Source: Serratia surfactantfaciens
Lineage (GTDB): Bacteria; Pseudomonadota; Gammaproteobacteria; Enterobacterales; Enterobacteriaceae
Assembly: GCF_001642805.2 (NCBI RefSeq)
Contig: NZ_CP016948.1
Span: forward strand, 2,790,001 to 2,854,000
Length of the DNA: 64,000 bases
Reading direction: 5' to 3'
Shown in pieces: positions 40,369-61,351 of this stretch (positions are counted from its first letter, which is position 1; the number at the start of each line of letters is the position of its first letter). The translations under genes were made by a program, and so were the position numbers. The notes under the pieces are model-generated. The model saw nothing but the letters and a program-made list of their open reading frames with translations, did not search any database and was not told where the DNA came from.

Positions 40369-40445
40369 CGGCATGTAGCGCAGCCTGGTAGCGCACCGTC
40401 ATGGGGTGTCGGGGGTCGGAGGTTCGAATCCTCTCATGCCGACCA
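40369..40445 (+). tRNA. proL: tRNA-Pro (anticodon GGG)
   Basis: 77-nt tRNA with encoded CCA. Acceptor CGGCATG pairs with CATGCCG; D-loop AGCCTGGTAGC; anticodon stem-loop around TCATGGGGTGTC with GGG; T-loop GGTTCGAATCC. Same gene position (after yejM) as E. coli proL. Its last 19 nt are repeated downstream. Confidence 0.97.
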
Positions 40446-40864
40446 AATTTAAGAAAACCTGCTGTTACAGCAGGTTTTTTTTCGTCTGCACGCTGAGAGG
40501 ATGAGAATCTCCGAAGGAGGTTTGAGCCGAGCGTAGTGAGACCACGTTGCTTTAGCAACGGCCCGCAGGGCAAGCATCGAAGATGCACATAATCCTCTCA
40601 TGCCGACCAAATTTAAGAAAACCTGCTGTTACAACAGGTTTTTTTTCGTCTGCACGCTGAGAGGATGAGAATCTCCGAAGGAGGTTTGAGCCGAACGTAG
40701 TGAGACCACGTTGCTTTAGCAACGGCCCGCAGGGCAAGCATCGAAGATGCGCATAATCCTCTCATGCCGACCAAATTCAAGAAAACCTGCTGTTACAGCA
40801 GGTTTTTTTTCGTCTGCACGCTGAGAGGATGAGAATCTCCGAAGGAGGTTTGAGCCGAACGTAG
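40427..40864 (+). repeat. RtT-like 164-bp tandem repeats starting in the tRNA 3' end
   Basis: Units begin at 40427, 40591 and 40755, exactly 164 bp apart. Each starts with the same 19 bp as the last 19 nt of tRNA-Pro (AATCCTCTCATGCCGACCA), then the terminator hairpin, then a conserved segment including GAGGATGAGAATCTCCGAAG and hairpin TTGCTTTAGCAA. Units 1 and 2 are full; unit 3 is cut at 40864 (110 bp). Only a few substitutions separate the copies. This is the arrangement of the E. coli tyrT/rtT repeats (about 178 bp, also starting in the last 19 bp of the tRNA), so small stable RNAs processed from the tRNA transcript are likely. Confidence 0.85.
40456..40482 (+). terminator. Terminator of the tRNA-Pro transcript (repeat unit 1)
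   Basis: Stem AACCTGCTG/CAGCAGGTT with a TTA loop and eight T residues, 10 nt after the tRNA. Copies recur at 40620 (one stem mismatch) and 40784 in the following repeats. Confidence 0.9.
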
Positions 40865-40944
40865 ACAGAGCGCGAGGCCCCTCCGTAGCATAATGAGTGC
40901 GAATTCCCTTTTGTTACTTTTAAGCCTCCCTTTAAGGCGGTTGC

Positions 40945-41127
40945 CTAACTTAATTCATTCATTTTTGTACGCGCGCTGAAGCAAATGATAAATATGAATA
41001 CAATGCCTACCAACTGCGGCCAAATTGCGCCACAAAGGAAATCGTCCCCTATATGCTTGCTGAGATCGAGGCATGTGTAAGTCGTAGCCCCAGAGAACCA
41101 AGCTTTTATCCAAAAAGTTTTCTTCAT
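40945..41127 (-). CDS. Small membrane protein, unrecognised
   Basis: 60 aa, starting MKKTFWIKAWFSGATTYTCL, with one strong transmembrane segment near the C-terminus (IWPQLVGIVFIFIICF) and a possible second near the start. AGGGA lies about 8 nt before the ATG. It is divergent from the microcin gene 150 bp away. It might be a further immunity or regulatory protein of the island, but nothing beyond size and location supports this. Confidence 0.45.
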   Translation of the reverse strand: MKKTFWIKAWFSGATTYTCLDLSKHIGDDFLCGAIWPQLVGIVFIFIICFSARTKMNELS

Positions 41128-41280
41128 GGGATGTCCCTATTCCAAAACATTTTAATATGTCACATAACAGAGTAAGCAGTCATTAATATAAACATTGATT
41201 CGATTGTGGAAAAGAGCTAATTATAAAGAGCCTTACGAAGGCTTACATAGTATCAATCAAATAATCAAAAGGAGTTGTTT

Positions 41281-41655
41281 ATGAAAGTTATTGATTCTTC
41301 AATGCTAAATTTCGTTTCTGGCGCAGGGAATTTTGCGGATAACCGTAGCAGTAACGGCAAGGTCAACAATAATAATGGGGGCTGTGGTGCTTCAACTAAC
41401 TATGGTGGCCAGGCTAATGGTTTTGTTAGCAACTCTTCAGCCGGCATGAGCAAGGATTGTGCTATAGCACTAGGATTGGCAGCGGCAGGTGGCGTTATCG
41501 GCGGACTTATATCGCAAGGCGCCAGGGCTGTTATTGGTGGTGTAGTGGGATCTTCGATTGGCTCCTTTGGAGCATGCATTGGTGGAAGCAACAACAATGG
41601 TTCTCAAAACGCCTCTAAAAGCGGAGGTTATAACGGGGGTACCTGTTCCTGGTAA
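41281..41655 (+). CDS. Putative class II microcin precursor
   Basis: Secreted antibacterial peptide precursor of 124 aa by inference. The leader MKVIDSSMLNFVSGA is 15 residues and ends in GA, like colicin V (15, GG) and microcin E492 (15, GA), so cleavage by the C39 exporter after GA is predicted, giving about 109 residues. The mature part has an Asn/Gly/Ser-rich N-terminus, a long Ala/Gly/Ile-rich hydrophobic core (GLAAAGGVIGGLI...IGGVVGSSIG), and an Asn/Gly/Ser tail ending GGTCSW. Four cysteines could form two disulfides. The tail lacks the serine-rich siderophore signature. AAGGAG lies 7 nt before the ATG; a TTG start at 41275 is less likely. Confidence 0.8.
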   Translation: MKVIDSSMLNFVSGAGNFADNRSSNGKVNNNNGGCGASTNYGGQANGFVSNSSAGMSKDCAIALGLAAAGGVIGGLISQGARAVIGGVVGSSIGSFGACIGGSNNNGSQNASKSGGYNGGTCSW

Positions 41656-41722
41656 TTACACACGAAATACTAACAGTGCTTATAAAAATCTTGCATGGTG
41701 TTTTTTGAAAGGAGGAAAGGAA

Positions 41723-41959
41723 ATGAAAAATCCATTTGTTGTTTTTGCTTTTGTTTTTATAATGATTTCATTATCGCAAAGTGTTTTTCACACTCTTGGA
41801 ATAACAAGTTACAACGGGCTTTTAAATATCAACTTACCTAAAGATCTCGCTCTGAGCATTATAATTATCTCTGTTCCAATAGGGATTTTTGCAATCATGT
41901 ATGGGATCTATTCATCTGTTAAATGGTTCGCTAAAACGTGGAATAAATCTGGAGGGTAA
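41723..41959 (+). CDS. Putative microcin immunity protein
   Basis: 78-aa protein beginning MKNPFVVFAFVFIMISL, with two transmembrane helices (about residues 4-24 and 42-65) separated by a short polar loop, and a basic C-terminus (VKWFAKTWNKSGG). GGAGG/AAAGG precedes the ATG. Immediate downstream position from the microcin gene and the two-helix design fit the immunity proteins of colicin V (Cvi) and microcin E492 type. No sequence family recognised; role is inferred from context. Confidence 0.65.
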   Translation: MKNPFVVFAFVFIMISLSQSVFHTLGITSYNGLLNINLPKDLALSIIIISVPIGIFAIMYGIYSSVKWFAKTWNKSGG

Positions 41960-41974
41960 CAGATTACTCCCTAT

Positions 41975-42004
41975 GCGATAGCGGAGGATCCCCCCCCCTA
42001 TCGC
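41975..42004. terminator. Hairpin with C9 tract between convergent operons
   Basis: GCGATAG (41975-41981) pairs with CTATCGC (41998-42004) around a loop that includes nine consecutive C. Located between the immunity gene and the convergent exporter gene; a bidirectional terminator is likely. Confidence 0.55.
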
Positions 42005-42018
42005 TGGTGTATTATTAT

Positions 42019-44118
42019 TTAATCCAACCTAATCACTCTATCTGCCGACGCTATCGTAGTTTCACGGTGAGCAATGATGATCCGCGTAATTTTTAGTTTT
42101 TTGATCGCCTGATTCACCTTCGCTTCACTGTCCTTGTCCAGCGCACTGGTCGCCTCATCCAGGAACAAAATCGCCGGTTTCTTGTAAATGGCTCGGGCAA
42201 TAAACAGGCGTTGCTTCTGCCCACCGGACAACCCTTCCCCCAGTTCGCCGATCAGGGTTTCGTACCCCATCGGCATGCGCATGATCACCTCATGCAGATA
42301 GCTGGCTCGGGCACAGACCTCCATCCAGGCATCATCCATCTCGTCCGCGAACCCGCAGATATTTTCCCGGATCGAGCCGGAGAACAGCTTGTCGTCCTGC
42401 ATCACGCAGGCGATCATCTTGTGATAGTTGTTGATGCCGAGCTGCCGGATATCGACGCCGTTCACCTCAACCCGCCCTGAATCCGGGGGAAACAGCCCGC
42501 ACAGCACCTTCATCAGCGTGGTCTTGCCAGCCCCGGATGGGCCCACGATGGCCACACTCTCTCCCGGCGCAACAGAGATATTTAGAGCATCGAAGACCGC
42601 CGGTGACTGGCTGTCGTATCGATAGCTCAGGGCATGGGTGGACAATCCCATTGGTTGCATTTTCGAGATATATGGGAGGTCGGGCTTGCGATCTTCCCGT
42701 GGATGCAGGGCGATATCGGCAATGCGTTCGTTATGCAGGCTCATCATGCGCAGCTGCAGCAAAAATTCCGTCAGCGACCCTATGCGGTCGGAGAACTGCC
42801 CCCGAAAGGCGCCGAACGCGACGAACATACCGAGGGTCATCTGATTATCGATCACCAGACGGGTCCCCAGCCACAGTATGACGACCTGGTCACAGGCCGC
42901 CACGAAGGTGTTGATCCCGCCAAACAGCATATCCATTTTGGTGATCCGGATACCGGTATTGATGGTGTCGATTTCAAGATTGAGCCAGTGGGCGATACGG
43001 CACTCCGCCATGCCCTGCATCTTGACGGTGGCGATACCGTACAGCGTCTCCATAAAATAGGAACCGGCGCGGGCATTTCTCACCAGCGCTTCTTCGGACA
43101 GCTGGCGATAATACCCGTAGGTCAACAGGCGCATCAGCACATAGAGCGCGGTGAACGCGATCACCACCCAGGTCAACCAGCCCCCATACAGCACCATCAT
43201 CACCAGCACGCCAATCACCATGATGCCGTCCATGATGGCGCCGACAATACTGGAGGTGAAGGTGCTGCGCAGCGTATCCAGTGAGCCGAAGCGCGACTGA
43301 ATGTCACCCAGCTTACGCCGTTCAAAGTAACCGAGCGGCAGGCGCAACAGGTGAGTAAACAGCCCGGATTGCCACTGCACGTTGATGAGCGTCGACATGA
43401 CCAGTCCGGCCCAGGCGCGCACCATGCCAATGGCGGCCCGCAACAGAATGAACAGCATCAGCCCAACGCAGATGAGCGTCAGCAACCCGCGGTCCCCGGC
43501 GGGAATAGCGTGATCCATCACCAGCTGCGTGCCGATGGGCACCACCAGGTTGATGGTTTCGAACACCAGAGACAGACAAAAGATTTTGCCAAGCGCCCCC
43601 TTGAGACCGTGTACGCTGCCAATCAGCGTACGCAGGTGAATGCGGTGGCGAACGCTGTCGGCGGTAAAGGCGCTGCCGGGCCAGGCCTCAAGCGCTACGC
43701 CGGTGAAACTGTGCGACAGCTCCGCCAGGCTGACCGCCCGCCGCCCGCGCGCCGGATCGTGCAGCACCGCGCGGTGACCTTTGACGCTAACCAGCACCAC
43801 GAAATGGTTGAACTCCCAGTGCAGAATGCAGGGCAGTTTCAGCGCGCCAAGTTCGTCCAGATCCAGCGACAAGGGGCGAGTGCTCAACCCCAGCTGTTCG
43901 GCGATACCGATCAGCCCAACCAGCGTTGCACCGCGGGTTGACAGGTTGAACTGCCGGCGCAGCGCGATCAGGTCGATGTTTTTGCCGTAATAACCGCAGA
44001 TCATCGCCAAACAGGCCAGCCCGCATTCCGACGACTCGGTCTGGTGCACCATCGGAACCCGGTGGCGCAGCCGCAGATCCAGCTGGCTGACCCGTTGTTT
44101 GAATGTTGGCTTATTCAT
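42019..44118 (-). CDS. cvaB: CvaB-type microcin exporter (C39 peptidase + ABC ATPase)
   Basis: Peptidase-containing ABC transporter of 699 aa that removes double-glycine leaders and exports the microcin with CvaA and TolC. The N-terminal C39 domain has the catalytic cysteine in [14 protein letters not shown] (about residue 32), histidine in [10 protein letters not shown] and aspartate in LHDPARG. A six-helix region follows, then Walker [12 protein letters not shown] (about 530), signature LSGGQKQR, Walker [14 protein letters not shown] and H-loop AHRE. Length and motifs match colicin V CvaB (698 aa) closely. Start overlaps the end of the upstream adaptor gene by 8 bp. Higher GC than the microcin genes. 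Confidence 0.92.
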
Positions 44119-45385
44119 TGACCGGCCCCGTTGCGCTGTGTTTCATGTCGTAGAACGGCGACAGCATCCATTGATAAACCAGCCTTTTCTCCAGAAACAG
44201 AGTGCTTTGCGCTTTCATGCCGTTTTCCAGGCTCAGACGCTTGCCGTCATAGGCAATGGTCTGTTTTTCCGGAATGACGATCACCTTGTAGTAAGGCACA
44301 GCGGCGGTCAGCGCCGCTTTGGGCGCCCCCTGATAGGTCAGCATTTCCTGCGGTGAGGCCGGGGCTTTGGAAATGACGGATACCGTACCGGCAAACTGGC
44401 CGAACTTCTCCGCCGGAAAGGCGTCATAACGCACATTGACCCGATCACCGGCAGCAATGTAAGGGATGGCGTCGTTAGGTACCCACAGCACCAGAGCATA
44501 GCGATCGATGTCGTGGGGGAGTACCTGCAGCAGACTGTCGCCGACGTTCACCATCTGGCCAACCGTGACGCTCAGCGAATCGATGCGGCCGCCGGCCAGC
44601 GCGCGAACGATAATATCGCCAGTGGCATCGATGTTTTGCCGCTCCTTTTGCAGCTCGTAGCGCTGCAGCTCCATCTGGTAGATCTGGTTGTCAAATTCAG
44701 CGGCCTGGGTATGGATCTGGCTTTCCAGCGCGGTGATCTGCAGCGCATTCTGTTCGTTCTGGCCGGAAAGCCCCAGCAGGTTGTTCTGCTGCTGGTAATA
44801 CAACGCCACCTGGTTGGTGAGCTGATCCTTGTTGATCAGCCCCTTGGTCTGATAGTGCCGGTAGTTCTCCATGTTCTCCTTCATGATGCGTATCCCTTCC
44901 TGGGCGCGCTGGAGGATATCGGTGGAGCGGGTAAATGCGGCGGTATATTGCGCCTTCTGTTTTTCCAACATAGTCAGCGTGGCCTGCTTGCTGCTTTCCA
45001 GCCGGCTGATGATTTGCGCAATGCGCGCCAGCTGGCCATCGATATCCCGCTGCTGGTTATCGCTGACCACTCCGCTGCGGGTGCTTTTGCTGACGTCAAT
45101 CTGGTAAATGGCCGCCCCGGCGGCGATCCGTTGCCCTTCGGTGACAAATTGTTTGATCACTACCCCTTGAACCGTGGAGTAAACGTTCGCGGCGCGGGGA
45201 TAGGTGCTGATCTCACCGGTCACGTTGACCCGCCGGGTATAGGTACCGGCGAGCACGAAGGTGAGAAAAGCAATGAGAAAAAACAGGCACAGCCCCGCAG
45301 TGAACCAAGCGGGAATACCGGGCAACAGCAATGCCCGGCCGCGCCATTTCAATTTTTGGTTACCGATCGCTTCCTGGCGAAACAC
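44111..45385 (-). CDS. cvaA: CvaA/HlyD-type periplasmic adaptor of the microcin exporter
   Basis: Membrane-fusion protein of 424 aa linking the ABC exporter to TolC. One N-terminal helix (about residues 25-47, [21 protein letters not shown]), a lipoyl-like half-motif ([16 protein letters not shown]), a long coiled-coil region (about 110-250), then the second lipoyl half and beta-barrel ([27 protein letters not shown]). The GTG at 45385 has AAGGAAG upstream. Order adaptor-exporter with a small overlap equals cvaA-cvaB. No TolC gene is present, so the chromosomal one must serve. Confidence 0.9.
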
Positions 45386-45914
45386 CGTTTTTCTTCCTTA
45401 AAAAAATAAGGGCCGTTGGCTCTTGCCCTATTATGTCGTTAACAATTCGCTAAATATCAGGCTTGCTGTGAGCCAGCGCTCGATACATAGTTGAATGTGA
45501 TATCGCAAATAACCCCGTCAGTTTACTGAGCGAATCTTGCCCGTTTTTATGCGCAGGGCCTAACTGTTTTTATTTTTTCCAGATATTTCTTGCTCCTCAT
45601 CAAATTGTCTCGGCGTCCAAATTCCCGTTACCGTGCCTTAGTGGGTATGCAGTTGCATCCAGTAAAACTCAATCCCTGCAAAGGCTTACTCCTATTTTTT
45701 GATGGCAAACCCAAATAGCAAACCATTGCACCGGAGAACTAAGATTTCATCGAAATAGTTAATTCATTGAACACCTTTATACTTAACTGAATAATACTTC
45801 GCGATAGTTATTCATCATTAATTTAAACTTGACCCGTCCAATAAAAAGCGTTAATCGTAACAAGCTTTAAACATGGTTGCACAAGATAACGTCAACAAGT
45901 AAAAGGAATTATTT
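45386..45914. other. AT-rich non-coding region upstream of cvaA and the second leader gene
   Basis: 529 bp, markedly AT-rich, holding the divergent promoters of cvaA and the short leader gene. No frame with convincing start and ribosome site was seen. GTTAATCGTAACAAGC and several TTAA-rich boxes occur but match no operator I can name confidently; a Fur box was looked for and not found. Confidence 0.45.
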
Positions 45915-46055
45915 ATGAAAACCATTGATTCTTCAATGCTGGATTACATTGCTGGTGGCCGTGGCAATAATGGCAACGGCCGTGTTGACAACGACAGGTA
46001 GAATAGTCATTCTGGCAGTAAAAAACTGCAAGAATTCAATAGGCGGTTCTTGTAA
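45915..46055 (+). pseudogene. Broken second microcin gene with conserved leader
   Basis: AAAGGA then ATG at 45915 encodes MKTIDSSMLDYIAGG, a 15-residue double-glycine leader sharing MK-IDSSML with the first microcin. Only 13 more residues follow (RGNNGNGRVDNDR) before TAG at 45999. Reading through gives 17 further codons to TAA at 46053. The Asn/Gly composition and VDND resemble the N-terminus of the first mature microcin (KVNNNN), but the hydrophobic core is absent. It is probably a deletion relic, although a 13-residue exported peptide cannot be excluded. Confidence 0.6.
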
Positions 46056-46110
46056 GGTTTGACTTTACCTTCAAGAGCATAACATTACAATATCAGACAG
46101 GACTAAAACG

Positions 46111-46317
46111 GTGACAAAGATTATCAATTCATTAATTGTCTTTTTATCCATCCTGGCCGGTTCTTTTTTTCTGAGTGGCGCCGGGGTAATAGGTTACCAA
46201 CCGTGGTTTTCTGCACCCGAGAATTTGTCAAAACTTGTGATTATCGTTGTCACCTACTGCTCCTTTGTTTACGCCGCATTAAGTATTTATAGAAAACTTA
46301 AAAAACAAACCCCATAA
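46111..46317 (+). CDS. Second immunity-like two-TM protein
   Basis: 68 aa from a GTG start (CAGGA about 8 nt upstream), MTKIINSLIVFLSILAGSFF. Two hydrophobic helices (about 5-28 and 40-58) and a basic tail (YRKLKKQTP). Layout matches the 78-aa protein after the first microcin: helix, Gly/Tyr-containing loop, P-x-(N/D)-L, helix, IY + basic tail. It follows the broken leader gene, so it looks like the retained immunity gene of a lost microcin. Confidence 0.55.
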   Translation: MTKIINSLIVFLSILAGSFFLSGAGVIGYQPWFSAPENLSKLVIIVVTYCSFVYAALSIYRKLKKQTP

Positions 46318-46411
46318 AAAAGCCATAACACAGGCATGACGTTCAGTTTTGGGTTAAAGAATAGAATTAACTATAAATTAACCCTCGCTAATTCAGTTTT
46401 TCGCCTGCCGT

Positions 46412-49400
46412 TTACGCGGGCAGTTTAACGATCGCCGCCGGGATGCCCTGCCGCACCGCCGCGCCGGTCACCCAATCCAGCCAGGTGTTCGGCACTTCGC
46501 GCGTCGGATCGGCAAACCCCAGATCGTTGAGGTTGATGCCGGCGGCGATGCGCTCATCCATCGCCAGCGGCTCACCGTCCAGATAGTGTTGGCTGGCCCC
46601 CATCTCGCGGTGGCCGTAGCCGTGTTCAACCGCAATCACGCCGGGCATCACGCCCGCCAGTAAACTGATCTGCGCCTCCCGGCTGCCGCCCGGCGTGCTG
46701 ATGCACACCCGGTCGCCGTGTTGAATGCCGAAATGCGCCCCATCCGCCGGGTTTAACGCCACCAGGTTCACCGGTTTCACGTCGTGCAGGCGCCGGATCA
46801 CCGCAGTGGAGCTGCTCATCACATTGGATTTGAAGGACATCAGGCGCAGCGGCCACTGCCGTTGCGGGTAGAGTTCTTCCACCGCGCGGCCATCCGACAA
46901 ACGCGCCGGATAGCAGGTTGGGCAGCCGCTGAAACGCTCGCCGGTGATCGCATGCCGGTGCTTCGCCACTTCCGCGTTCCAGATCTGCAGCGGTTTCTCC
47001 CAGCGATTGCCCACGCTGCCGTCGCGGCGGCCGCTGTCATGAGCGGCGAACCGGCCGCCGCGGCTGTAGATAAACGCTACGCGGTCGATTTCATCGGCGC
47101 GCAGCGTCTGCGCCAGCTGCGGCAACAAGCGATCGACGCCGCTTAGCGCCAGCTCTTCCGCCCTCGCAGCCGGCACCGGCGCCTTGCCTGCAAACGCGAC
47201 GTTGGCGGCGGCGCGCAGATAATAATCCTCGGCGCGGTTGAGCGGCAGCAGCCCTCCCTGGCCGTCGCCGATCGCCCGATCGCCGAAGCCCGGCAACGCC
47301 AGGCGTTTGGCGACGGCGATGCAAAACGCCTCCATGGAGATCGGTTGCCCTTGCGCCGTTTTAGCGGTCGCCGGCGTCACTATCGGCCAGCGCGCGGTGG
47401 TGGCCTTGCTGGCGACGCCGCCCCAGGGAGCGCTAAATCCCCAACTCTCAAAGTTATGGGTATCCGGGATGATATAGTCGGCCAATGCCGTCGTTTCATT
47501 GATAAACGCATCGATAGCGATAAACAGCGGCAAACGCGCCGGATCTTTGAGCCGTTCCTCCGCCACGCCGCGCAAACCGGCGATACCGTACAAGGGATTG
47601 GTCATGTTCGAGATCCAGGCTTTCAGCCCGTAGGGATACCCCGCCAACGCCGAGGTCAGCAGCTCGGTCAACTGCCCGGCGACGAACGGATACCAGGGCG
47701 CTTTGGCCGGCCAGGGCGAAATGCCCGCCGCCACTTTTTCGCGATATTCGTCCGAGGCTTCATAGGCAGCCTTGCTGCGCGCAATATTCAGCCCCTTTGG
47801 TTTCACCAGACCGGGAAACTCAGCCAGGTTATAGCGTGGCCCTTCGGCGAAGCCGTTAAATTTACCGCCGCCGACGAACACCCCGCCCGCCAGGCTCAGA
47901 TTGCCGATCAGCACATTGAGCATCATCACCGACCAGGTATTATAAAACCCGTTTGCCGCCATCATCCCGCCATGAGCGATCACCGCCGCCTTGCGCCCAT
48001 GGGCGGTAAAAGCCTCGGCCAGCGCCGCAATGCGCGCCACCGGCACGCCGCATTCTCGGCTGTACGCCTCTGGCGAAAGTTTGTCGGCAGCCTCTTTCAA
48101 ACACTGAAAGCCGCTCTTCACCGCCACCTGCGCACCGTCGTGCAGCGTCACCCTGCGCGTTACCCACAGCTCGGCACTGTCGCACGTCTCGGCCGCCACC
48201 AGCTCGCCCGCACCGTTGACCACCAGCGGCGATGCCAACCCTGCGCCGTTCAGATGGGCGAGCGTCAGATGTTGGCCCGCCAACGGGTGCTCGCTCTCGG
48301 CGATCACCAGATGCGTGGCGTTGGTCCAGCTCTTCTCGCCGGCGCGTTGCATGGCAGCCTCTGACGGGATGGCGAGATAGTCGGCTTGATAGCGCCGGTT
48401 GTCGAGGATCCAACGGATCATCGCCATCGCAAGCGCCGAGTCGGTGCCCGGCAACACCGGGATCCAATGACCATGATCGTCCGCCAACGTAGTGGTCAGC
48501 GGCAGCGCCGGCGCCACCACCGCATAGCGGAACTCGCTGCGCAGCCTGGCGCTAGCCAGTTGCCGGGCCTGGCGCTTGAAAGGGTTGCCGGACTGCGCCG
48601 GTGAGGTGCCCATAAACAACGCGAATTCGACCTGTTCCCAGTCTGGTTTCACGTGCGGGTTCTTATCCAGATCGTTCATCAACGCACCGGAGCCGGCGCG
48701 GTAGGCCAGCCCGCAGTAAGCGCCGTGCGCGCCGAAATTCTTGCTGCCAAAGCTGTTCTGGGCGAAGCGCCGCAGGAAGCTGTCGCGCCCGTCGTCACCG
48801 GCGTTGGTCACCAGCAGCTGATTGGCTTTCGGCCCCAGCCCCGGCTGCCGGGCGTCGATCGGCGTTTCCAGATCGCGGATCGCCCGCAGACCGTCCACCG
48901 GTCCTTCGCCGAACAGATCGCCGCCCTCCACCACTTCCTCGATCAGCTGCTCAAAACTGATGCGCTGCCACTTGCCTTCGCCGCGTTTGCCGACGCGCTT
49001 CATCGGCTCCAGTACGCGCAGCGGACTGTAAAGGCCCTCCAGCAGCGTGGCGCCGCGCGCACAGGCGGTGGAACGGGCATCGAGACCGCTTTCGCCACCC
49101 AGCTGCGCCAGCGCTTCCTGCAGCGGCAAGGCGGAATCGACGTGCTGCTCCTGAGACAGCGGATGATAAGGGTTGCCGGCAATGCGCAGCACCCGGTCGG
49201 TCTGCCGATCCACCCTCACCCGCACGCCGCACTGCGTCCAGCAGCCGAAACATTGGGTCATCGAGATGGCCTGCTGCGGATTGCTTTGCCATTCCGGCGC
49301 CGCCCGCCCTTCGGGCGGCAGAGAGTTACTGTTGATGCGATCCCGCGTCACGCGCCCAGAGGTGCCGTGGATCAAGCCGTCGATCGCCCGTTTGGCGACC

Positions 49401-54092: not shown

Positions 54093-54755
54093 ATGCAAGG
54101 AAATCTCAAACTCTATGGTCTTTTTGTTGGCCTGACCGTAACCATAATGATCACCTGCGACACCCTGGTTTATAAAGTTTTTGATATCTATGGTTTTAAA
54201 ATAACCGCTAGCGGCATTGTATTCTCCCTGTGTTTTCTGATATCTACGTTGCTTACCGAGGTTTACGGCTATAAATTATCAGTAAGAGCAATATGGATCA
54301 TGGTGTTCTGCCAAAGTTTATATGTCATCATACTTAACCTCTCCGCTGTCATCCAGCCAGAAAATAACGCTATAGCGACTCACTATAACGCTTTATACCA
54401 TGAATTTTGGCGCGTCATGATAGGCACCTGGGTATCCGTTCCCGTCTCATATTTTGTTAATGGCTTCATCATTTCAAAGATGAAAATTATCTTCTCCGGC
54501 AAATACTTCTTCATTCGCTATATTGCAGGCTCCATGTCTACGCAGGCCGCGTTGTTGCTGACGGCCTATCCGATTAGCCTTTCGGGCAAATACACCTTTA
54601 TGGAACTGGTTAATATCATAAGCACCACCTGGTCTTATAAGGTGGTCGTCTCCATTGTATTGCTGCCGCTCGCTATCATCCTGGTAGAATGGGTTAAGAA
54701 AATAGAAAACACCGATCATTATGATTGGGGCGCATCATACAATCCTTTTAAATAA
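54093..54755 (+). CDS. YhhQ/VUT-family (DUF165) transporter
   Basis: 220-aa membrane protein with about six helices, resembling the VUT/YhhQ family that imports queuosine precursors (preQ0, preQ1, queuine). Visible family-like features: an N-terminal helix ending in ITCDTLVYKVFDIYGF, LISTLLTEVYGYKLS (acidic residue in helix), and SYFVNGFIISKMK before a later amphipathic helix. It is AT-rich, has AAGGA before the ATG, and is 17 bp from the next gene, suggesting one operon. Substrate unproven; the family call is from pattern only. Confidence 0.65.
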   Translation: MQGNLKLYGLFVGLTVTIMITCDTLVYKVFDIYGFKITASGIVFSLCFLISTLLTEVYGYKLSVRAIWIMVFCQSLYVIILNLSAVIQPENNAIATHYNALYHEFWRVMIGTWVSVPVSYFVNGFIISKMKIIFSGKYFFIRYIAGSMSTQAALLLTAYPISLSGKYTFMELVNIISTTWSYKVVVSIVLLPLAIILVEWVKKIENTDHYDWGASYNPFK

Positions 54756-54772
54756 TTTCAGTAAGGTAGAGC

Positions 54773-55504
54773 ATGAAAGCAATTCAGATTAGTGACATAC
54801 ACATTATGCCTAATGAAAGCGCGCTGGCCTCTAAGCACCTGGCTAATTTCGAAAAGGCCATTGATTTTATTAATGCCAATGCCGATCAAATAAAGGCAGA
54901 CTTGATCATTGTAACAGGTGATATCTCTCATGATGGTGACATTCCCTCATATGAGCGTTTCTTTAACGTAATGAGCCGCGTTTCATTACCTTTTTATTTA
55001 TTCCCAGGCAACCACGACAGTAAAAAAAATCTGAGTGATGTAGCCCGCCAACAGGGCGGTAACTATGATATAAATTCTTTTGAAGATGACGAGTGGCGCA
55101 TGCTTAGCATCGACTCGGTTGTTGACAATGAAGATTTTGGCTGGGTGTCGAAACAAGCGTTAGAAACGCTTGAAGAAGCCATAATATCCAGTGAAAATAA
55201 AAAGATAGCTATTTTCTTGCACCATCACCCGCTTCCTGTCGGCACCCCCATTGTCGATAGTTGTATGTTAAACAATGCCGGCGAACTTTTGAGCCTCTGT
55301 CAACGATTGAACGTTAAGTTTATTGGTTCAGGCCATGCGCATACGCTATTTCAACGGAAAATGGGAGACACCCTGGTCTCGGTTTCCCCTGCAATTTGCT
55401 CGCAATGGAAAAACGGCACAAGCGAAGTCAGCAGCATAGACAATACGGCTTTCAGCGTGATTACGTTCGATGAGCATATTCACGTCGAGCCATGGTTCAT
55501 TTAA
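54773..55504 (+). CDS. Calcineurin-like metallophosphoesterase, CpdA type
   Basis: 243 aa with all five metallophosphoesterase blocks in order: SDIHIM (D-x-H), VTGDISHDGD, PGNHDSKK, FLHHHPLP and GSGHAHTLF. This set is typical of class III cyclic-nucleotide phosphodiesterases and related enzymes (CpdA, GpdQ) that use two metal ions. No signal peptide, so cytoplasmic. Co-transcribed with the transporter gene upstream. Substrate may be a cyclic nucleotide, a nucleotide or a phosphodiester; the pairing with a YhhQ-like transporter is unusual. Confidence 0.75.
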   Translation: MKAIQISDIHIMPNESALASKHLANFEKAIDFINANADQIKADLIIVTGDISHDGDIPSYERFFNVMSRVSLPFYLFPGNHDSKKNLSDVARQQGGNYDINSFEDDEWRMLSIDSVVDNEDFGWVSKQALETLEEAIISSENKKIAIFLHHHPLPVGTPIVDSCMLNNAGELLSLCQRLNVKFIGSGHAHTLFQRKMGDTLVSVSPAICSQWKNGTSEVSSIDNTAFSVITFDEHIHVEPWFI

Positions 55505-55985
55505 TCAACGTCAGTATCGTTTTTTTAGGCTTGTCACTTTGCTTTGCGTTTTGCAAGGAGGCGGAGATTTCTCTGCCTTCTTTCACTCCGGCATAAAATG
55601 CTATTTTTGTCGCATCTAAAGACTCGGTTTTATCGACCAGCTCACGATTTCTTAAAAAATCCTTTCCTGATATGGATATTGAATCAGCACCGTTTTTCAA
55701 CGTCCACATACAGTTCCTTTTCTCTTCATGAATCGACAGTTTGGCTGAGGCAATTTTTATTTTAGACTCCGTTTCGGCGATGAAAGCAATGTCTTTAGGG
55801 TTAACATGCCTTAGAAAGTCGCCCTCAACAAGCTGCCCCCAGTTTTTTTTCACGAAGGTATGGGTGCCAAACTCTTTGAAAAGCCAATACCCCTCGGCGG
55901 TTCGCGTCACGCTGCGATCTAAAGTGTACAGATAACTTGGAGAGTATATTCTCCTTAACTTGCGGACTATTTTAAACAAATCCAT
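55497..55985 (-). CDS. Unrecognised 162-aa protein
   Basis: Soluble, mixed-charge protein starting MDLFKIVRKLRRIYSPSYLY, with no signal peptide, membrane helix or motif I recognise. It has a lysine-rich C-terminus (KQSDKPKKTILTLIK). Its ATG abuts the TAA of the XRE regulator upstream (TAAATG), so the two are one operon. Its end overlaps the convergent phosphoesterase gene by 8 bp. AT-rich like its neighbours. Confidence 0.6.
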   Translation of the reverse strand: MDLFKIVRKLRRIYSPSYLYTLDRSVTRTAEGYWLFKEFGTHTFVKKNWGQLVEGDFLRHVNPKDIAFIAETESKIKIASAKLSIHEEKRNCMWTLKNGADSISISGKDFLRNRELVDKTESLDATKIAFYAGVKEGREISASLQNAKQSDKPKKTILTLIK

Positions 55986-56600
55986 TTATTTCAGCCTCTT
56001 TATCGTTTTCAATAAAACACCGATAATCGCGTAATCGCTGTAGGACTTCACACTGCTGTCTGAATCTAATGAGATGTTTGTAAACTGCAAGTCGTCATGA
56101 GAAACAAAGACCCTTCTTAAGCATATTGGGTAGTTTTTTAGCTTAACCAGGACGATATCCCCATCACAAAATGGTTCCTGAAGGGAGATGACACAATAGG
56201 TTCCACGATCCCATTCAGGTGACAACGAGTTATTCGTTATCTCCACCACAAACAGCGAATCGTCCGTAATGTCATCCACTTCTGTCGTGTAGGTATCTGA
56301 TGTTGTCATCGCCTGATCCAGGAAACGCTCTATATCGCTGTAGCTAATGAGCGGTAGCGATCTAACGTTGTGATTGGCCTCTCCCGAGACTCGTAAGTCC
56401 TTGTCAGTCAGCTCCCCAACTTTCACGCTGAAAAATTCACCAATTGACGAGAGCGTAGAGATCGTCGGATTCCCGATGCCCTTTCTCAGGTTGTTGATAG
56501 TGGCAATACCGATCCCTGTTTCGATACTCAGTCTGCTGGCGTCAATCCCATGCATGCGCATGAGATAAGTTAGGTTTTCCCCTATCATTTTCAATGACAT
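55986..56600 (-). CDS. XRE-family repressor with S24-like C-terminal domain
   Basis: 204-aa regulator. The helix-turn-helix occupies about residues 5-55 (LTYLMRMHGIDASRLSIETGIGIATINNLRKGIGNPT). The C-terminal part resembles the LexA/CI S24 fold: ITNNSLSPEWDRGTYCVI carries a serine at the usual nucleophile place and CDGDIVLVKLKN follows, but the general-base lysine position reads LRRVF, with Arg. The start at 56600 is preferred (AGAAAG upstream); an ATG at 56639 gives 13 more residues. Together with the 162-aa gene it forms a likely self-regulated operon. Confidence 0.7.
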   Translation of the reverse strand: MSLKMIGENLTYLMRMHGIDASRLSIETGIGIATINNLRKGIGNPTISTLSSIGEFFSVKVGELTDKDLRVSGEANHNVRSLPLISYSDIERFLDQAMTTSDTYTTEVDDITDDSLFVVEITNNSLSPEWDRGTYCVISLQEPFCDGDIVLVKLKNYPICLRRVFVSHDDLQFTNISLDSDSSVKSYSDYAIIGVLLKTIKRLK

Positions 56601-56659
56601 ACCACTTTCTTCTGATATTTTAATGTTGTTTTGTTGCATTATAATGTTTTAAACCTATA

Positions 56660-56676
56660 CTTTAGCGTTGTTAAAG
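56660..56676. promoter_or_regulatory. Candidate operator upstream of the XRE gene
   Basis: CTTTA-N7-TAAAG inverted repeat, 17 bp, about 60 bp from the repressor start in an AT-rich promoter region; likely a site for the XRE regulator itself. Confidence 0.35.
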
Positions 56677-57013
56677 TTAATTTAAAATATTAAACCACTC
56701 CAAGGGACGTGATGACAATGGTACAGGTCGAATTACATGCAAATTAAAAAATAATTATTTGTAATGTAAATCATTTATTAAATAAGCGTTCTTACAGAAG
56801 CAAGATAGGCCACCACAACAATAATTCAAATTCCTTATGTAACCGCTTTATCTAGTCTGCATCCCATACTGCGACGAGCGTTTTGCAAGCGTGACGCCAA
56901 TAACTCACATACCAACGCATCAAACATTAGCAGTGCTGTTAAAACGCAAGAAGCCTCTTCACCGTATTTACGCCACGGCAGACGAGGGAAACACCAAAAA
57001 CGGCGACCAGAAA

Positions 57014-57060
57014 GGTGGCGTCGGGCCTCCAACACCAGGGAGCGCCAGTCCGACGCCACC
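57014..57060. repeat. 11-bp inverted repeat
   Basis: GGTGGCGTCGG (57014-57024) is the perfect reverse complement of CCGACGCCACC (57050-57060), with a smaller CTCC/GGAG pairing inside the 25-nt loop. It should form a stable stem in RNA of either strand; no T tract follows. Confidence 0.6.
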
Positions 57061-57267
57061 ACCTTATGTATTGAATGAGAGAGAAATGCGCTCAGCGGGT
57101 AATGGCGATAATCTTCTGAAGATTCGACAGGCGATTACGGGTGGGGAAAAATGCGGACCATCGGCCTGGCCGGCTCAACGGCAAATTCTGCCGCCCGGCA
57201 TGTAAAGATGAATGCCCATGCAAAATTCCGCATCCCCTCTTGCCAACTCTCACTCCTCAGGCCAAAA

Positions 57268-57287
57268 TACTGTACATTAAATCAGTA
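57268..57287 (+). promoter_or_regulatory. LexA (SOS) box upstream of dinI
   Basis: TACTGTACATTAAATCAGTA has the perfect CTG-N10-CAG core of the LexA operator and full TACTG/CAGTA ends, 14 bp before the dinI start. Confidence 0.9.
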
Positions 57288-57301
57288 TTTACAGGTGGGT
57301 C

Positions 57302-57544
57302 ATGTTTGTAGAATTGGTGTACGACAAACGCAACGTCGCTGGGCTGCCCAACGCCGCCGAGATTATTCGCAGCGAACTGGAGAAACGCGTGCATGCGCTG
57401 TTCCCGGAAGCGGAAGTGCGCGTGAAGCCGATGCAGGCCAACGGCCTGAACTCCGACGCCAGCAAAAGCGATCGCGAAAAGCTGAACCGGATGTTGGAAG
57501 AGATGTTCGAAGAAGCGGATCAGTGGCTGGTCACTGATATTTGA
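57302..57544 (+). CDS. dinI: DinI-like SOS protein
   Basis: 80-aa DinI/ImpC-family protein: MFVELVYDKRNVAGLPNAAE, then EVRVKPMQANGL and an acidic C-terminal helix (EEMFEEADQW) that in E. coli DinI binds RecA and stabilises or inhibits its filaments. The LexA box directly upstream shows SOS control. It faces the tail-fibre genes, a placement common at the tail end of lambda-like prophages, so this is likely a prophage copy rather than the chromosomal dinI. Confidence 0.9.
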   Translation: MFVELVYDKRNVAGLPNAAEIIRSELEKRVHALFPEAEVRVKPMQANGLNSDASKSDREKLNRMLEEMFEEADQWLVTDI

Positions 57545-57630
57545 CGGGCAGTAACGCTATTGACTCCCACTCAGCGGGAAGTTTGCCTGGCGGGAACGGG
57601 CCGCGTGTTTGCCCGAGCCTCTCGGTGATA

Positions 57631-57678
57631 ATGCCGGTGCCGATGCAATAGGCGACCAAAACCCTACTGCACCGGCAT
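57631..57678. terminator. Hairpin between convergent dinI and tail-fibre gene
   Basis: 10-bp perfect arms ATGCCGGTGC (57631-57640) and GCACCGGCAT (57669-57678) with a 28-nt loop and a short T tract on the plus side. Confidence 0.5.
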
Positions 57679-57699
57679 TTTACCTGGTATCCACGTTAT

Positions 57700-59436
57700 T
57701 TATGAAGCCGCGTTGGTTTCCGATGACCCGTCATCGTTTGATACCAGCGCCTCCGGCGGCAACACTTCCACCACTTCACGCACCGGCATGGCGAGGCGCA
57801 GATCGATCCAGCGCCCTTCAGGGATATCCATCGCTTCGCCGGCCACAACCGTCGCGGTATCGATGTCAAAACGACGTTTGCTGATTTTCACCGTAATAAC
57901 ACCGTCGCTGTCGGTGGCGGTTTCCACAAAGCACAGGCGGTTGCCGTTCACGTCCTGCGGTACTTCGATGGTCCAGCCCTCCTTTGCCAACCCCAGCGAA
58001 CCTTTCAGTTGATAAACGCCGGTGGAGATTCGCTCAGCACTTACCCCGTCTGCCTCACCGTTAACCGCTACGCAACCGGCCAGAGCAAAGCCACCTTCCA
58101 GATAATCAGCCTGCATATGCTCAGGCGCAGCAGACAATCTGGCGATCGGTGAGGCTTTCTTGATAAAGCCGTTGGCATCAACGGTAGTGTTTGATGTCCC
58201 CCAAAGGATGTTGCTTTTGACAATGCCAGCCGTTAATCCTGTTCCGTTGCAGGTCATCGTGTTTACATTACCGTTGTTATAATCCACAGCAATAACCGCA
58301 CTCACGTCACCGCACATTAAATGAATCGATGAACCGTCTGGAGGCATACCTATTTTTGAACCACCTCCAACACGAAATATTTCACTACCGTGCCCTCTCA
58401 ATGTTTTCATTAACGTCACTTGAGACTCAACATCGACACCACTAATTCTCGGCCCGCCGGCCCCGCCAAAACCATTAGAAAACGCTTTAGCTACGCTTTC
58501 ATAATCCGGCAACTGCTTTTTATTATCCCAAACAGGGATTTTATACTCGATAAAATCCATTGTTCCTACTGGAGAAACACTCATTTTTTTAAAAGAAACA
58601 TTAACTTTTGCCAATTGACCTGGAGAGCGAGAATCAACAACCATATATGTGGCGGAGGTAACAAATGCGTTCACTAATATATAAATATCAAACGTATTAC
58701 GTGCGCTTTCTATCATTGCTGCACTACCTAATATGGGACGAGTGCCAGTTGTATAGAGCGTAATCGATGCGGCCCCCTTCACGTTTGTGTCAACCGCCCT
58801 ATTTCCATATCTGAATATGAGTCTCTGGCTACATGTCTGATCCGAGTTTCCGTTGTAACCGGACCCACCATTGAAATCAAAAACGACGGTATCTCCATGC
58901 TGATCCGTAACTACTGTACCTAATTGGTACCACCACACCCCCACTCCCTGAGATGGCATAGCATATCGAGTTTTACCCCATAGTGTTGACACAATCCGAT
59001 CGTCAATGCTATTCGCCAACTGATCAACAATCTTTGCTGCATTGTTTTCACTGTTTTTTGCTGCAACAGCCGATTTCGCTGATTTATCTGCTGATAACGC
59101 AGCCTCTGCGCGTAGGCGATCGACGGTTTGCACAATCTCCGGCGTGATATCGCTTTTTCCAGGTCGGCTCAGGAAATCATTGAGCGTGCCGGGCAGGGAA
59201 TCGTTATAAACCTCGATAGCACCCACTCGCTCCGGCTGTGCGCCGTATACAGAGATAATGACCTCGTAAGCGCCCGCCTCTACGGGTAGGGAATATTTAC
59301 CGCTATCATCCGTCACTGATTGTGATTTAGCCAGACTCAGGACCGTTGATGAGGTTCTGACTGCGCGCAGGGTAATGGTTACGCCGGAGCGAGGATCGCC
59401 GTAAGGGCCTTTTAATACGCCGCTGATTAATGTCAT
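57700..59436 (-). CDS. Prophage tail-fibre protein with Stf-type N-terminal domain
   Basis: 578 aa. The N-terminus matches the lambda Stf/prophage tail-fibre N-terminal domain: ISGVLKGPYGDPRSGVTITL, KYSLPVEAGAYEVII, YNDSLPGTLNDFL, then an alpha-helical Ala/Lys/Ser stalk (SADKSAKSAVAAKN). The receptor-side two thirds is unlike Stf; the central part (roughly 58150-59050) is visibly AT-richer than the ends, suggesting exchange of the receptor-binding module. The C-terminus is Glu/Ser rich. Starts 4 bp inside the end of the neighbouring fibre gene (ATGA). Confidence 0.82.
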   Translation of the reverse strand: MTLISGVLKGPYGDPRSGVTITLRAVRTSSTVLSLAKSQSVTDDSGKYSLPVEAGAYEVIISVYGAQPERVGAIEVYNDSLPGTLNDFLSRPGKSDITPEIVQTVDRLRAEAALSADKSAKSAVAAKNSENNAAKIVDQLANSIDDRIVSTLWGKTRYAMPSQGVGVWWYQLGTVVTDQHGDTVVFDFNGGSGYNGNSDQTCSQRLIFRYGNRAVDTNVKGAASITLYTTGTRPILGSAAMIESARNTFDIYILVNAFVTSATYMVVDSRSPGQLAKVNVSFKKMSVSPVGTMDFIEYKIPVWDNKKQLPDYESVAKAFSNGFGGAGGPRISGVDVESQVTLMKTLRGHGSEIFRVGGGSKIGMPPDGSSIHLMCGDVSAVIAVDYNNGNVNTMTCNGTGLTAGIVKSNILWGTSNTTVDANGFIKKASPIARLSAAPEHMQADYLEGGFALAGCVAVNGEADGVSAERISTGVYQLKGSLGLAKEGWTIEVPQDVNGNRLCFVETATDSDGVITVKISKRRFDIDTATVVAGEAMDIPEGRWIDLRLAMPVREVVEVLPPEALVSNDDGSSETNAAS

Positions 59437-60593
59437 TGTACTTTCTCCATAAGTTCTTTGATTAATTCATCCTGGCGATCGATTCTATCCAGAGCCTGAT
59501 TCAGCGCAGCCAGGGCCACATATCCCAGCGTTGAATAATCGACGGATTTTACTCGAGTAACAGTTTCGCCGTTTTGCAATTGTAAAGAACCGCCTTCAGC
59601 AACAACCTGGGGAAGTTTCTTTTCAATTTCTTGTGCGATACCACCAATAAAGGGTTTACCATCTCGCTTGCCAGTATAGAGTTTTAGACCACGAATGAGT
59701 GTTATAGGGTCTTCAATTTCTTCTACTTCAGTTTTAATTCTAAGGTCTGAGCCGGTCACCCAATTTCCGGTTAAGTTATTAAAGTCCCCGTTATTCTGTA
59801 GACGGACCTCATGCCAGACATTGGCGTAATCCTTAAATGAAATCGCACCATAATCAGTTACCCCAATTTCACGACGACAAAACATTTGCATGGCAGTGAC
59901 AACGCCACCTGCAGTTGTCATGACCGATAGTAATGTCGGGCCATCTACAGTTCCGGTAGATCTGGTAAAAGTCTTTTCAGCACGGACATTAGACGATCCC
60001 GTATCACCAGAGTTCAAATGAATGCCATTTCGCCCCATCATGGTATCATCAAATGTCGTTGACTTGCGAAAGCGTGAATATCCACCCACATCAAGATTTG
60101 CCGTTTGTCCTGTCACCACAGAGCCCTGTAAAGACAGTGAACCTTTAATCTCTTGGGCAGTAGCAACCGTCTTATCTAATTTATTATTAAGCGAAGCCGT
60201 AATACTGTTCCAGGCCGGGCCACTATAGGTGCCACCGTCCGGCAGCTTAACGGTAATATTTCCGTTGCCGCTGAAGACCTGCTGCCAGTTCTCCTTATCG
60301 AGGTTCAGCCCGCGCAGGGCTTTCGCCGTTTCGGCGGCCAGTTGGGCGGTGATGGCATTCATCGCATCGCGCGGTACGGCATACCATGCTGCGCCCGCCT
60401 GCGTTGGGCCGTCATAGGCTTTAACCAGTGTTACCTGAGTGGCGTTATCAATCGTTTTTACCGGCAGCGTATAGGTGACGCCACCGACGGTGCTGACAAT
60501 AAAGTCACCGGCTTTCAGTTCGGTATTAAAGGCCGTTCCGGTTCCTTTCACTATAGTTGAATTATTCGTTAGGGTTAGAGTGCCTGCTGGCAT
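59433..60593 (-). CDS. Tail-fibre/spike protein with C-terminal S74 chaperone domain
   Basis: 386 aa. The N-terminus (MPAGTLTLTNNSTIVKGTGTAF) is a beta-rich phage fibre anchor; the middle is receptor-binding-like; the C-terminus (about residues 280-386) is an intramolecular chaperone of peptidase family S74, with the self-cleavage region TGSDLRIKTEVEEI and GGIAQEIEKKLPQVV, followed by a coiled-coil end. The chaperone trimerises the fibre and then cuts itself off before the Ser of SDLRIK. Overlaps the next fibre gene by 4 bp. Confidence 0.85.
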   Translation of the reverse strand: MPAGTLTLTNNSTIVKGTGTAFNTELKAGDFIVSTVGGVTYTLPVKTIDNATQVTLVKAYDGPTQAGAAWYAVPRDAMNAITAQLAAETAKALRGLNLDKENWQQVFSGNGNITVKLPDGGTYSGPAWNSITASLNNKLDKTVATAQEIKGSLSLQGSVVTGQTANLDVGGYSRFRKSTTFDDTMMGRNGIHLNSGDTGSSNVRAEKTFTRSTGTVDGPTLLSVMTTAGGVVTAMQMFCRREIGVTDYGAISFKDYANVWHEVRLQNNGDFNNLTGNWVTGSDLRIKTEVEEIEDPITLIRGLKLYTGKRDGKPFIGGIAQEIEKKLPQVVAEGGSLQLQNGETVTRVKSVDYSTLGYVALAALNQALDRIDRQDELIKELMEKVQ

Positions 60594-60718
60594 AATACTC
60601 TCCTGAGTTTTGATAATAAAAATAAGAAGGTATCAGGATTACGTTCTTGTCTAGCAAGGTTTATACTTATACCAACCAATGTGATATTTTCTACGAATGC
60701 CTATTTTATTTTCTTGAC

Positions 60719-61351
60719 TTATCTATTTATAAATGTAGCAATGGGAAACTTCAAATAGCCTCGTCCAGAAAATCTCTCCGAATATGTCTGAGTCCGATAT
60801 TTTAGCCACGTCAGTTGAAGTTCCATCCCAGTCCATCGGACTAAAATACCTGCATTTTGTGCAGAAATCTCGCTTTCAAATGAGTCAGCTGGCATACAAT
60901 TGATTGGAAACCACGGGCTAAAACTAGATGGTAATGACTGTATCCCTTTGTCTACTGCACTAGTTACTTCAACTATGCTCCGTACTCGTGGCATATCACT
61001 AGCTGATTTTGCGGTCCATATAAGCTCAGAGTCAGCGGAGAACACATCTAAATATCCGGACTGCATTGCGATATTATGCGATGTAGCAATAAGCTCAACA
61101 CCTCCCGCCGTGAAGTATTTAGCGCCTGGCCAGCACCAAGCGCCCGGGGATAGCCGAGCCCAATACAGCAACCCAACCGAAAGCTCATTAATAGCTAAGT
61201 AGCTTAATTTATGAAGATCACCAAATATAGTATCCCCCCATAAATCAGGCGGGTAAAATTTTGGCACCTTGTGCTCAGCAACAAGAGTATGTTTATACTC
61301 ACTGTCTATTATCAGTGAGCCATCTGTGTTGTAAATTTGAAAATTAGACAT
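60719..61351 (-). CDS. Phage tail-associated protein, unrecognised (possible DUF6453 type)
   Basis: 210 aa, MSNFQIYNTDGSLIIDSEYK onward, beta-rich with many aromatic residues and no membrane segment. Proteins of this size and start (MSN-Q-YN-DG) sit right after J in many enterobacterial siphophages. AT-rich. Its ATG overlaps the stop of the preceding gene by 1 bp (TAATG). Role unknown, perhaps a tail-tip or fibre accessory. Confidence 0.6.
   Translation of the reverse strand: MSNFQIYNTDGSLIIDSEYKHTLVAEHKVPKFYPPDLWGDTIFGDLHKLSYLAINELSVGLLYWARLSPGAWCWPGAKYFTAGGVELIATSHNIAMQSGYLDVFSADSELIWTAKSASDMPRVRSIVEVTSAVDKGIQSLPSSFSPWFPINCMPADSFESEISAQNAGILVRWTGMELQLTWLKYRTQTYSERFSGRGYLKFPIATFINR

Follow-up and report, generated by a model that had tools for sequence, protein, structure and literature searches.

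Class II microcins have been described in large numbers from Serratia marcescens. A survey of 1,621 S. marcescens assemblies by Parker et al. (2026; PMC13101503) found class II microcins in 96% of them, 93 unique ones in total; in the available part of that article, none of the 93 carries a canonical class IIb tail, and 17 of the 40 tested are antibacterial. In Escherichia coli, McpM, the precursor of MccPDI (plasmid pCH110, LC567091.1; L033 5875-6237), has cysteines at positions 57, 90, 109 and 118, in agreement with the accessible text of PMC5311971. According to the same text, function depends on C57 and C90 but not on C109 and C118, and removal of residues 19-36 leaves a product that is still secreted but with reduced activity, the amounts not having been normalised. 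Hybrids of H47-like and PDI-like domains have been described in Erwinia and Pantoea, three of six with extra N-terminal sequence (Morton et al. 2026; PMC13174018, as excerpted), so modular microcin hybrids as such are already known. Further background is given in the available portions of Cole et al. 2022 (PMC9746304) and of a 2019 review (PMC6795089).

Here, we describe a microcin gene from a 64,000-nt stretch (the window) of the Serratia surfactantfaciens genome, which is a single contig of 5.12 Mb. Much of the comparison is with plasmid pSERAS01 of S. marcescens AS-1 (NZ_AP019010.1; precursor at L003 6001-6381). The first-pass annotation had proposed a 124-aa ORF at 41281-41655 with a 15-aa leader ending in GA, a 109-aa mature region and cysteines in the contexts GGCGAS, KDCAIA, GACIGG and GGTCSW; translation confirms all of this and places the cysteines at residues 35, 60, 99 and 122. 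An AGGAG motif, read by eye, lies just 5′ of the ATG at 41281, and the start in the mechanical ORF list is a TTG six bases before that ATG. Judged from its sequence, the product of this apparently mosaic gene is probably a class II microcin of the class IIa type, which carries no siderophore, and is predicted to kill rivals. The features of the locus are as follows.

41281..41655, + strand: microcin precursor gene, 124 aa plus stop (reading frame and homologues)
41281..41325, + strand: double-glycine-type leader MKVIDSSMLNFVSGA, codons 1-15 (identical to the pSERAS01 leader; putative cleavage at its end)
41326..41391, + strand: N-terminal arm spanning codons 16-37; contains Cys35 and, at 36-37, a second GA (arm type as in pSERAS01, p14VA2 and G001)
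41392..41433, + strand: linker STNYGGQANGFVSN over codons 38-51, the proposed site of exchange (linker identity and diverged flanks)
41434..41580, + strand: hydrophobic core rich in Gly and Ala, containing Cys60 and Cys99 (homology to the G016 and G018 cores; MccPDI-type profile match)
41581..41652, + strand: C-terminal tail QNASK..YNGGTCSW, which includes Cys122 and may serve in uptake (similarity to the G016 and G018 tails)
41723..41959, + strand: 78-aa candidate immunity protein with a strongly hydrophobic segment beginning near residue 41
42019..44118, - strand: C39-peptidase ABC exporter, CvaB/MchF type
44111..45385, - strand: HlyD-family adaptor, CvaA-like
45915..46001, + strand: second microcin reduced to a core-less remnant of 28 aa, leader and arm (full-length relative at G005 locus L013)
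46111..46317, + strand: immunity-like membrane protein, GTG start, 68 aa (47% identical to the protein beside that full-length relative)

Linked exporter, adaptor and immunity-like genes had been claimed as well, and all three are adjacent. A C39 exporter with an HlyD-type adaptor nearby is one mark of a class II microcin; another, according to the available part of PMC5311971, is a leader of 15-19 aa ending in GA or GG, which the precursor has. The exporter is 72-75% identical to plasmid proteins annotated CvaB or MchF. The gene for the 78-aa protein starts 67 nt after the precursor gene. Relatives of this hydrophobic protein stand beside homologous cores in S. proteamaculans CCUG 14510 (G018; 35% identity), S. 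plymuthica NBRC 102599 (G016; 30%) and S. inhibens S40 (G005; 29%), which supports its putative role in immunity. Profile comparison with the McpI group gives a probability of 8.4 directly, with a score above all 40 shuffles, and probabilities of 80.6 and 82.4 via the pSERAS01 protein. Neither the precursor nor the 78-aa protein matches a Pfam or NCBIfam family at E ≤ 1. The genome has two further C39-type exporters. One, CvaB-like (55%; L030 7439-11287, G000:C1 about 2.584-2.588 Mb), is accompanied by its own 119-aa, cysteine-free precursor with a GA leader and lies near genes that look fimbrial by eye; the third (36% identity; L031 4440-9839, G000:C1 about 130.4-135.8 kb) has a radical-SAM protein and an HlyD-like adaptor as neighbours, also recognised by eye, and is probably an unrelated modified-peptide system.

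The microcin unit sits behind tRNA-Pro (40369-40445). An oxidoreductase gene that ends at 46412 here is 561 nt from the query start in three relatives versus 6316 nt in the window, implying an insertion of about 5.7-5.75 kb, and the precursor, candidate immunity gene, exporter and adaptor all fall within it. DNA held in common with two plasmids typed as conjugative suggests a plasmid source; outside the exporter and adaptor genes, the insert contains no ORF of integrase size. The view that tRNA-Pro marks a hot spot for microcins was unsupported: none of 20 stretches taken from behind it showed an exporter match of at least 35% identity. Nine of the 20 have the downstream oxidoreductase gene, four of them at a short distance (561 nt in three, 1052 nt in one); the gap holds metabolic genes in four and an integrase island in one, functions being assigned by eye from translations. 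In the remaining 11 stretches, one just 389 bases long, the gene was not found. The segment at 40427-40918 contains three tandem 164-nt repeats after tRNA-Pro(ggg), and two stretches in it match the Rfam RtT RNA (RF00391; 81 bits, gathering threshold 45). Elsewhere in the window, a low-G+C region at 54093-61351 encodes a prophage tail fibre and a repressor of the S24 type.

Homologues of the core were found in other Serratia. Intact copies in S. plymuthica and S. proteamaculans align over their full length at 55% and 52% identity, and the copy in S. inhibens carries a stop. Over codons 1-51, comparison with pSERAS01 gives a pN/pS of 0.14 (8 silent and 4 replacement differences); from codon 38 to the end, pN/pS is 0.37 against the S. 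plymuthica gene and 0.30 against the S. proteamaculans gene. Silent differences exceed replacement differences per site in all five pairs tested, the immunity gene included (pN/pS 0.14-0.52). Given two full-length relatives and this excess of silent differences, the precursor ORF is not a chance reading frame. A search with the precursor (P0001) found matches at E ≤ 0.01 in 9 of 30 Serratia genomes, its own included, of which five have other cores only. A profile built from three precursor rows hit 3 of the 198 family genomes: its own, that of S. proteamaculans, which supplied a row of the profile, and G060, whose core is of the pSERAS01 type. No relative turned up in a scan of viral_contigs.

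The mosaic can be seen at the DNA level. By blastn, the window matches pSERAS01 at 81% over 40944..41432 (+), up to codon 51, and the match resumes at 42015-45496, through exporter and adaptor, at 90%; the core, tail and immunity stretch in between has no such match. In 12-codon blocks, identity to pSERAS01 is 83-100% up to codon 48 and 33-69% thereafter. For the S. plymuthica gene, identity is 31-47% as far as codon 36, rises to 83% over codons 37-48 and drops to 42-67% beyond. At the protein level, core and tail match S. plymuthica and S. proteamaculans; the exporters of those two strains are only 40-41% identical to that of the window. The switch falls in the linker STNYGGQANGFV, where 36 of 36 nt, the first of codons 38-51, are identical in the window, pSERAS01 and G060; linker identity is 86% to S. 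plymuthica and 56%, that is, diverged, to S. proteamaculans. Upstream of the linker, identity with the window drops to 62% (G060) and 33% (S. plymuthica); downstream, ungapped identity drops to 36-37% (pSERAS01, G060). Labelling arms A1, A2 and B and cores X and Y, the window combines A1 with X, pSERAS01 A1 with Y, G060 A2 with Y and S. plymuthica B with X; S. proteamaculans has core X with its diverged linker. These combinations look like three arms joined to two cores around one linker.

It is possible, if tentative, that Serratia and its relatives shuffle two cassettes, one of leader, N-terminal arm and exporter and the other of core, tail and immunity gene, by recombining within a conserved linker of 36-41 nt, and that the gene described here is a product caught in this process, whose Cys35 could pair with the lone tail Cys122 and so tie arm to tail. 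Mantel tests bear on this idea, in sets that are small and whose rows are partly kin by descent. Across 16 precursors, exporter similarity correlates with leader (r 0.53) and N-terminal arm (r 0.40; p 0.0005 for both) and does not correlate with core (r 0.07, p 0.23). Over 22 precursors, which include six unrelated ones omitted from the smaller set, the corresponding values are 0.35 for leader, 0.32 for arm and 0.05 for core. Not everything fits two cassettes: arm also correlates with core (r 0.50, p 0.0005 for 16; 0.47 for 22), leader does so too (r 0.32, p 0.0015; 0.31), and among the 16 precursors tail correlates with exporter (r 0.30, p 0.007; 0.17, p 0.12 for 22). Our caution reflects these correlations, which were counted against a clean rule. 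Seventeen plasmid regions around exporters were taken, 15 with a precursor and two (L039, L042) without; even with L003, L004 and L033 added, they cover only a small fraction of the plasmid records that have an exporter match, which number 917. L035 and L038, repeats of L034 and L037, were left out of the Mantel test, and eight trailing residues were removed from the SmJSRIV precursor.

The stricter idea that the N-terminal arm is specific to its exporter was weakened, since exporters 92-94% identical adjoin unrelated precursors (L034, L036, L041), and further by the NANSN arm, which occurs with two very different exporters, and by the correlation of arm with core. In three plasmid regions (L034/L035 1195-3146; L049 927-2772), a CvaB-type exporter stands beside a small protein that, by annotation or by domain match, has a TcdA/TcdB-type glycosyltransferase domain (PF12919, E 2.6e-29, for L034 only). 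These regions also encode a Gly/Ser/Asn-rich peptide with a double-glycine leader, a possible glycosylated microcin system. In the available parts of the microcin literature searched, exchange of arm and core at a linker was not found, which is not proof of its absence.

Two microcin loci in this genome have lost their cores. One is the 28-aa remnant at 45915, accompanied in another frame by a tail-like remnant ending ..NCKNSIGGSCKV. The other, L002 (G000:C1:1345792), encodes 41 aa versus 114-116 aa in its four closest relatives and has lost its core in frame relative to G029, G009 and G013. Its 72-aa immunity-like neighbour is 97-100% identical across five genomes, at 97-99% in the four relatives, and those four have a full-length microcin there. 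We considered that core-less peptides might be a functional class of mini-microcins and rejected this for L002, given the full-length gene in four of five genomes and the in-frame loss. Immunity-like genes of the L002 type occur at 18 places in 15 of 30 genomes: 13 beside a full-length precursor, two beside a truncated one and three with none recognised. On a simple reading, immunity would have been kept at these loci after loss of the toxin: the weapon gone, the shield retained. At L118 1990-2091 (G021), a microcin ends after the N-terminal arm (33 aa), beside an immunity-like match with one stop.

How the gene should be classified depends on its tail, core and cysteines. The first-pass annotation was right that the siderophore-linked tail of class IIb is absent: the tail ends ..ASKSGGYNGGTCSW, and a look for siderophore-attachment genes at 40900-46400 found no ORF longer than 150 aa besides those of exporter and adaptor. 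By analogy with class II microcins in general, the tail is the putative uptake part. Within the core, the most hydrophobic 19-residue segments begin at residues 60 and 83; structure prediction from three sequences was uninformative (mean pLDDT 37). A core profile of three sequences matches a nine-member MccPDI-type group (probability 94.2, E 1.1e-7, score 42), none of 40 column shuffles scoring as high (maximum 18.4), and the alignment pairs C60, C99 and C122 with C57, C90 and C118. The same profile reaches a probability of 88 over 29 columns against a one-cysteine group and 0.07 against an unrelated peptide group; because the one-cysteine group matches too, part of the signal may be common glycine-rich composition. 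We suggest with moderate confidence that the core would work like that of MccPDI. The claim of novelty was not supported as stated, as class II microcins of S. marcescens are already published (PMC13101503, in its available part) and profile comparison makes the core a distant relative of MccPDI. Set beside the published SM001-SM080 by description only, the locus is ordinary in kind, with good support as a microcin locus, and the mosaic is its notable part.

The proposal of two disulfides from the four cysteines also fared poorly. Codon 35 is TGT in the window and CGT (Arg) in pSERAS01, and both intact core homologues have three cysteines. Residues 16-124 have a calculated average mass of 10211.9 when reduced, 10209.9 with a single disulfide and 10207.9 with two. 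In a tally by hand of 31 family precursors, 20 have two cysteines in the core and two in the tail (one of these with a fifth), five have two and one, four have a single cysteine, and two are irregular, namely a Rahnella gene and the window gene with two in the core, one in the tail and one in the arm. A cysteine in residues 16-45 occurs in 3 of the 31. The fourth cysteine therefore looks like a gain in the window gene, and a pair of disulfides is not an inherited feature. A bond from C35 in the arm to C122 in the tail is possible but speculative.

Could the gene instead encode a genuine homologue of MccPDI that has two leaders, is cleaved both after residue 15 and at GA36-37, and acts through OmpF? 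The core profile match, the C60/C99 pairing and the position of this GA near G35/A36 of McpM would fit such an assignment, but a GA between residues 21 and 48 is seen in just 8 of 31 precursors, two of them McpM and the product of the window gene, the exporter is of the CvaB type and 39% identical to that of MccPDI, and the third cysteine of McpM is absent. MccPDI/MccS membership calls for detectable pairwise homology, for two cysteines in each of core and tail and, in action, for killing that depends on OmpF and on proximity; BLASTP of the precursor against McpM is not significant (E=50), and the window gene has the pattern given above. Pairwise homology, cysteine pattern and exporter type having all been checked without agreement, the gene is not filed as MccPDI, and we consider true homology unlikely.

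A decayed or silent microcin, intact in appearance and no longer used, would resemble the two core-less remnants of the same genome. A simple scan yielded no convincing promoter ahead of 41281, with 10 sites in the region versus 5.8 ± 2.8 in shuffles and none on the + strand at 40900-41281, and codon 35 differs from the pSERAS01 arm. The frame, ribosome site, immunity gene, exporter and adaptor are nevertheless all open, and the low pN/pS over the stretch common with pSERAS01 also argues against disuse; we regard silence as improbable. More doubtful still, and in our view highly improbable, is a secreted double-glycine peptide that does not kill, such as a signal, with the 78-aa protein as sensor or helper. 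C39 exporters do process signal peptides too, but a mature part of 109 aa in which two stretches are hydrophobic fits a membrane-active toxin, and the scanned proteins of the insert include no recognised kinase or regulator. Relatives in kind are antibacterial, as far as the available text of PMC13101503 and PMC5311971 goes.

If the gene encodes an active class II microcin, the C39 domain would cut after Ala15 during export through the exporter, the adaptor and TolC of the host. The tail would then bind an outer-membrane receptor of a related bacterium, and the glycine-rich core would enter and damage the inner membrane, with C60 and C99 bridged as proposed for C57 and C90 of McpM. The 78-aa membrane protein would shield the producer. 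The mosaic itself may have arisen by recombination in the common linker, in which case a strain could change its killing specificity and keep its secretion machinery by swapping core and immunity gene. The mosaic may help to predict which leaders pair with which exporters, which would be useful in heterologous secretion screens, and it would offer a natural test of the role of the N-terminal arm.

Finally, the locus can be set against the known systems. The S. marcescens microcins SM001-SM080 come from the same genus, often several per genome, and in the example shown in the available part of PMC13101503 exporter and adaptor run in the opposite direction, as they do in the window. Like McpM, the window precursor has a glycine-rich core with two cysteines, a C-terminal GGTC and a double-glycine-type leader; unlike McpM, with which its pairwise similarity is non-significant, it lacks the third cysteine, has the extra Cys35 and is served by another type of exporter. 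In the Erwinia and Pantoea hybrids, the join described in the available text of PMC13174018 lies between core and uptake tail, whereas here it lies between N-terminal arm and core, at the common linker, and keeps leader and exporter on one side. The pSERAS01 precursor has the leader, N-terminal arm, linker and exporter (92.5%) of the window gene but another core, tail and immunity gene, with Arg35 and with cysteines at 64, 97, 115 and 124.
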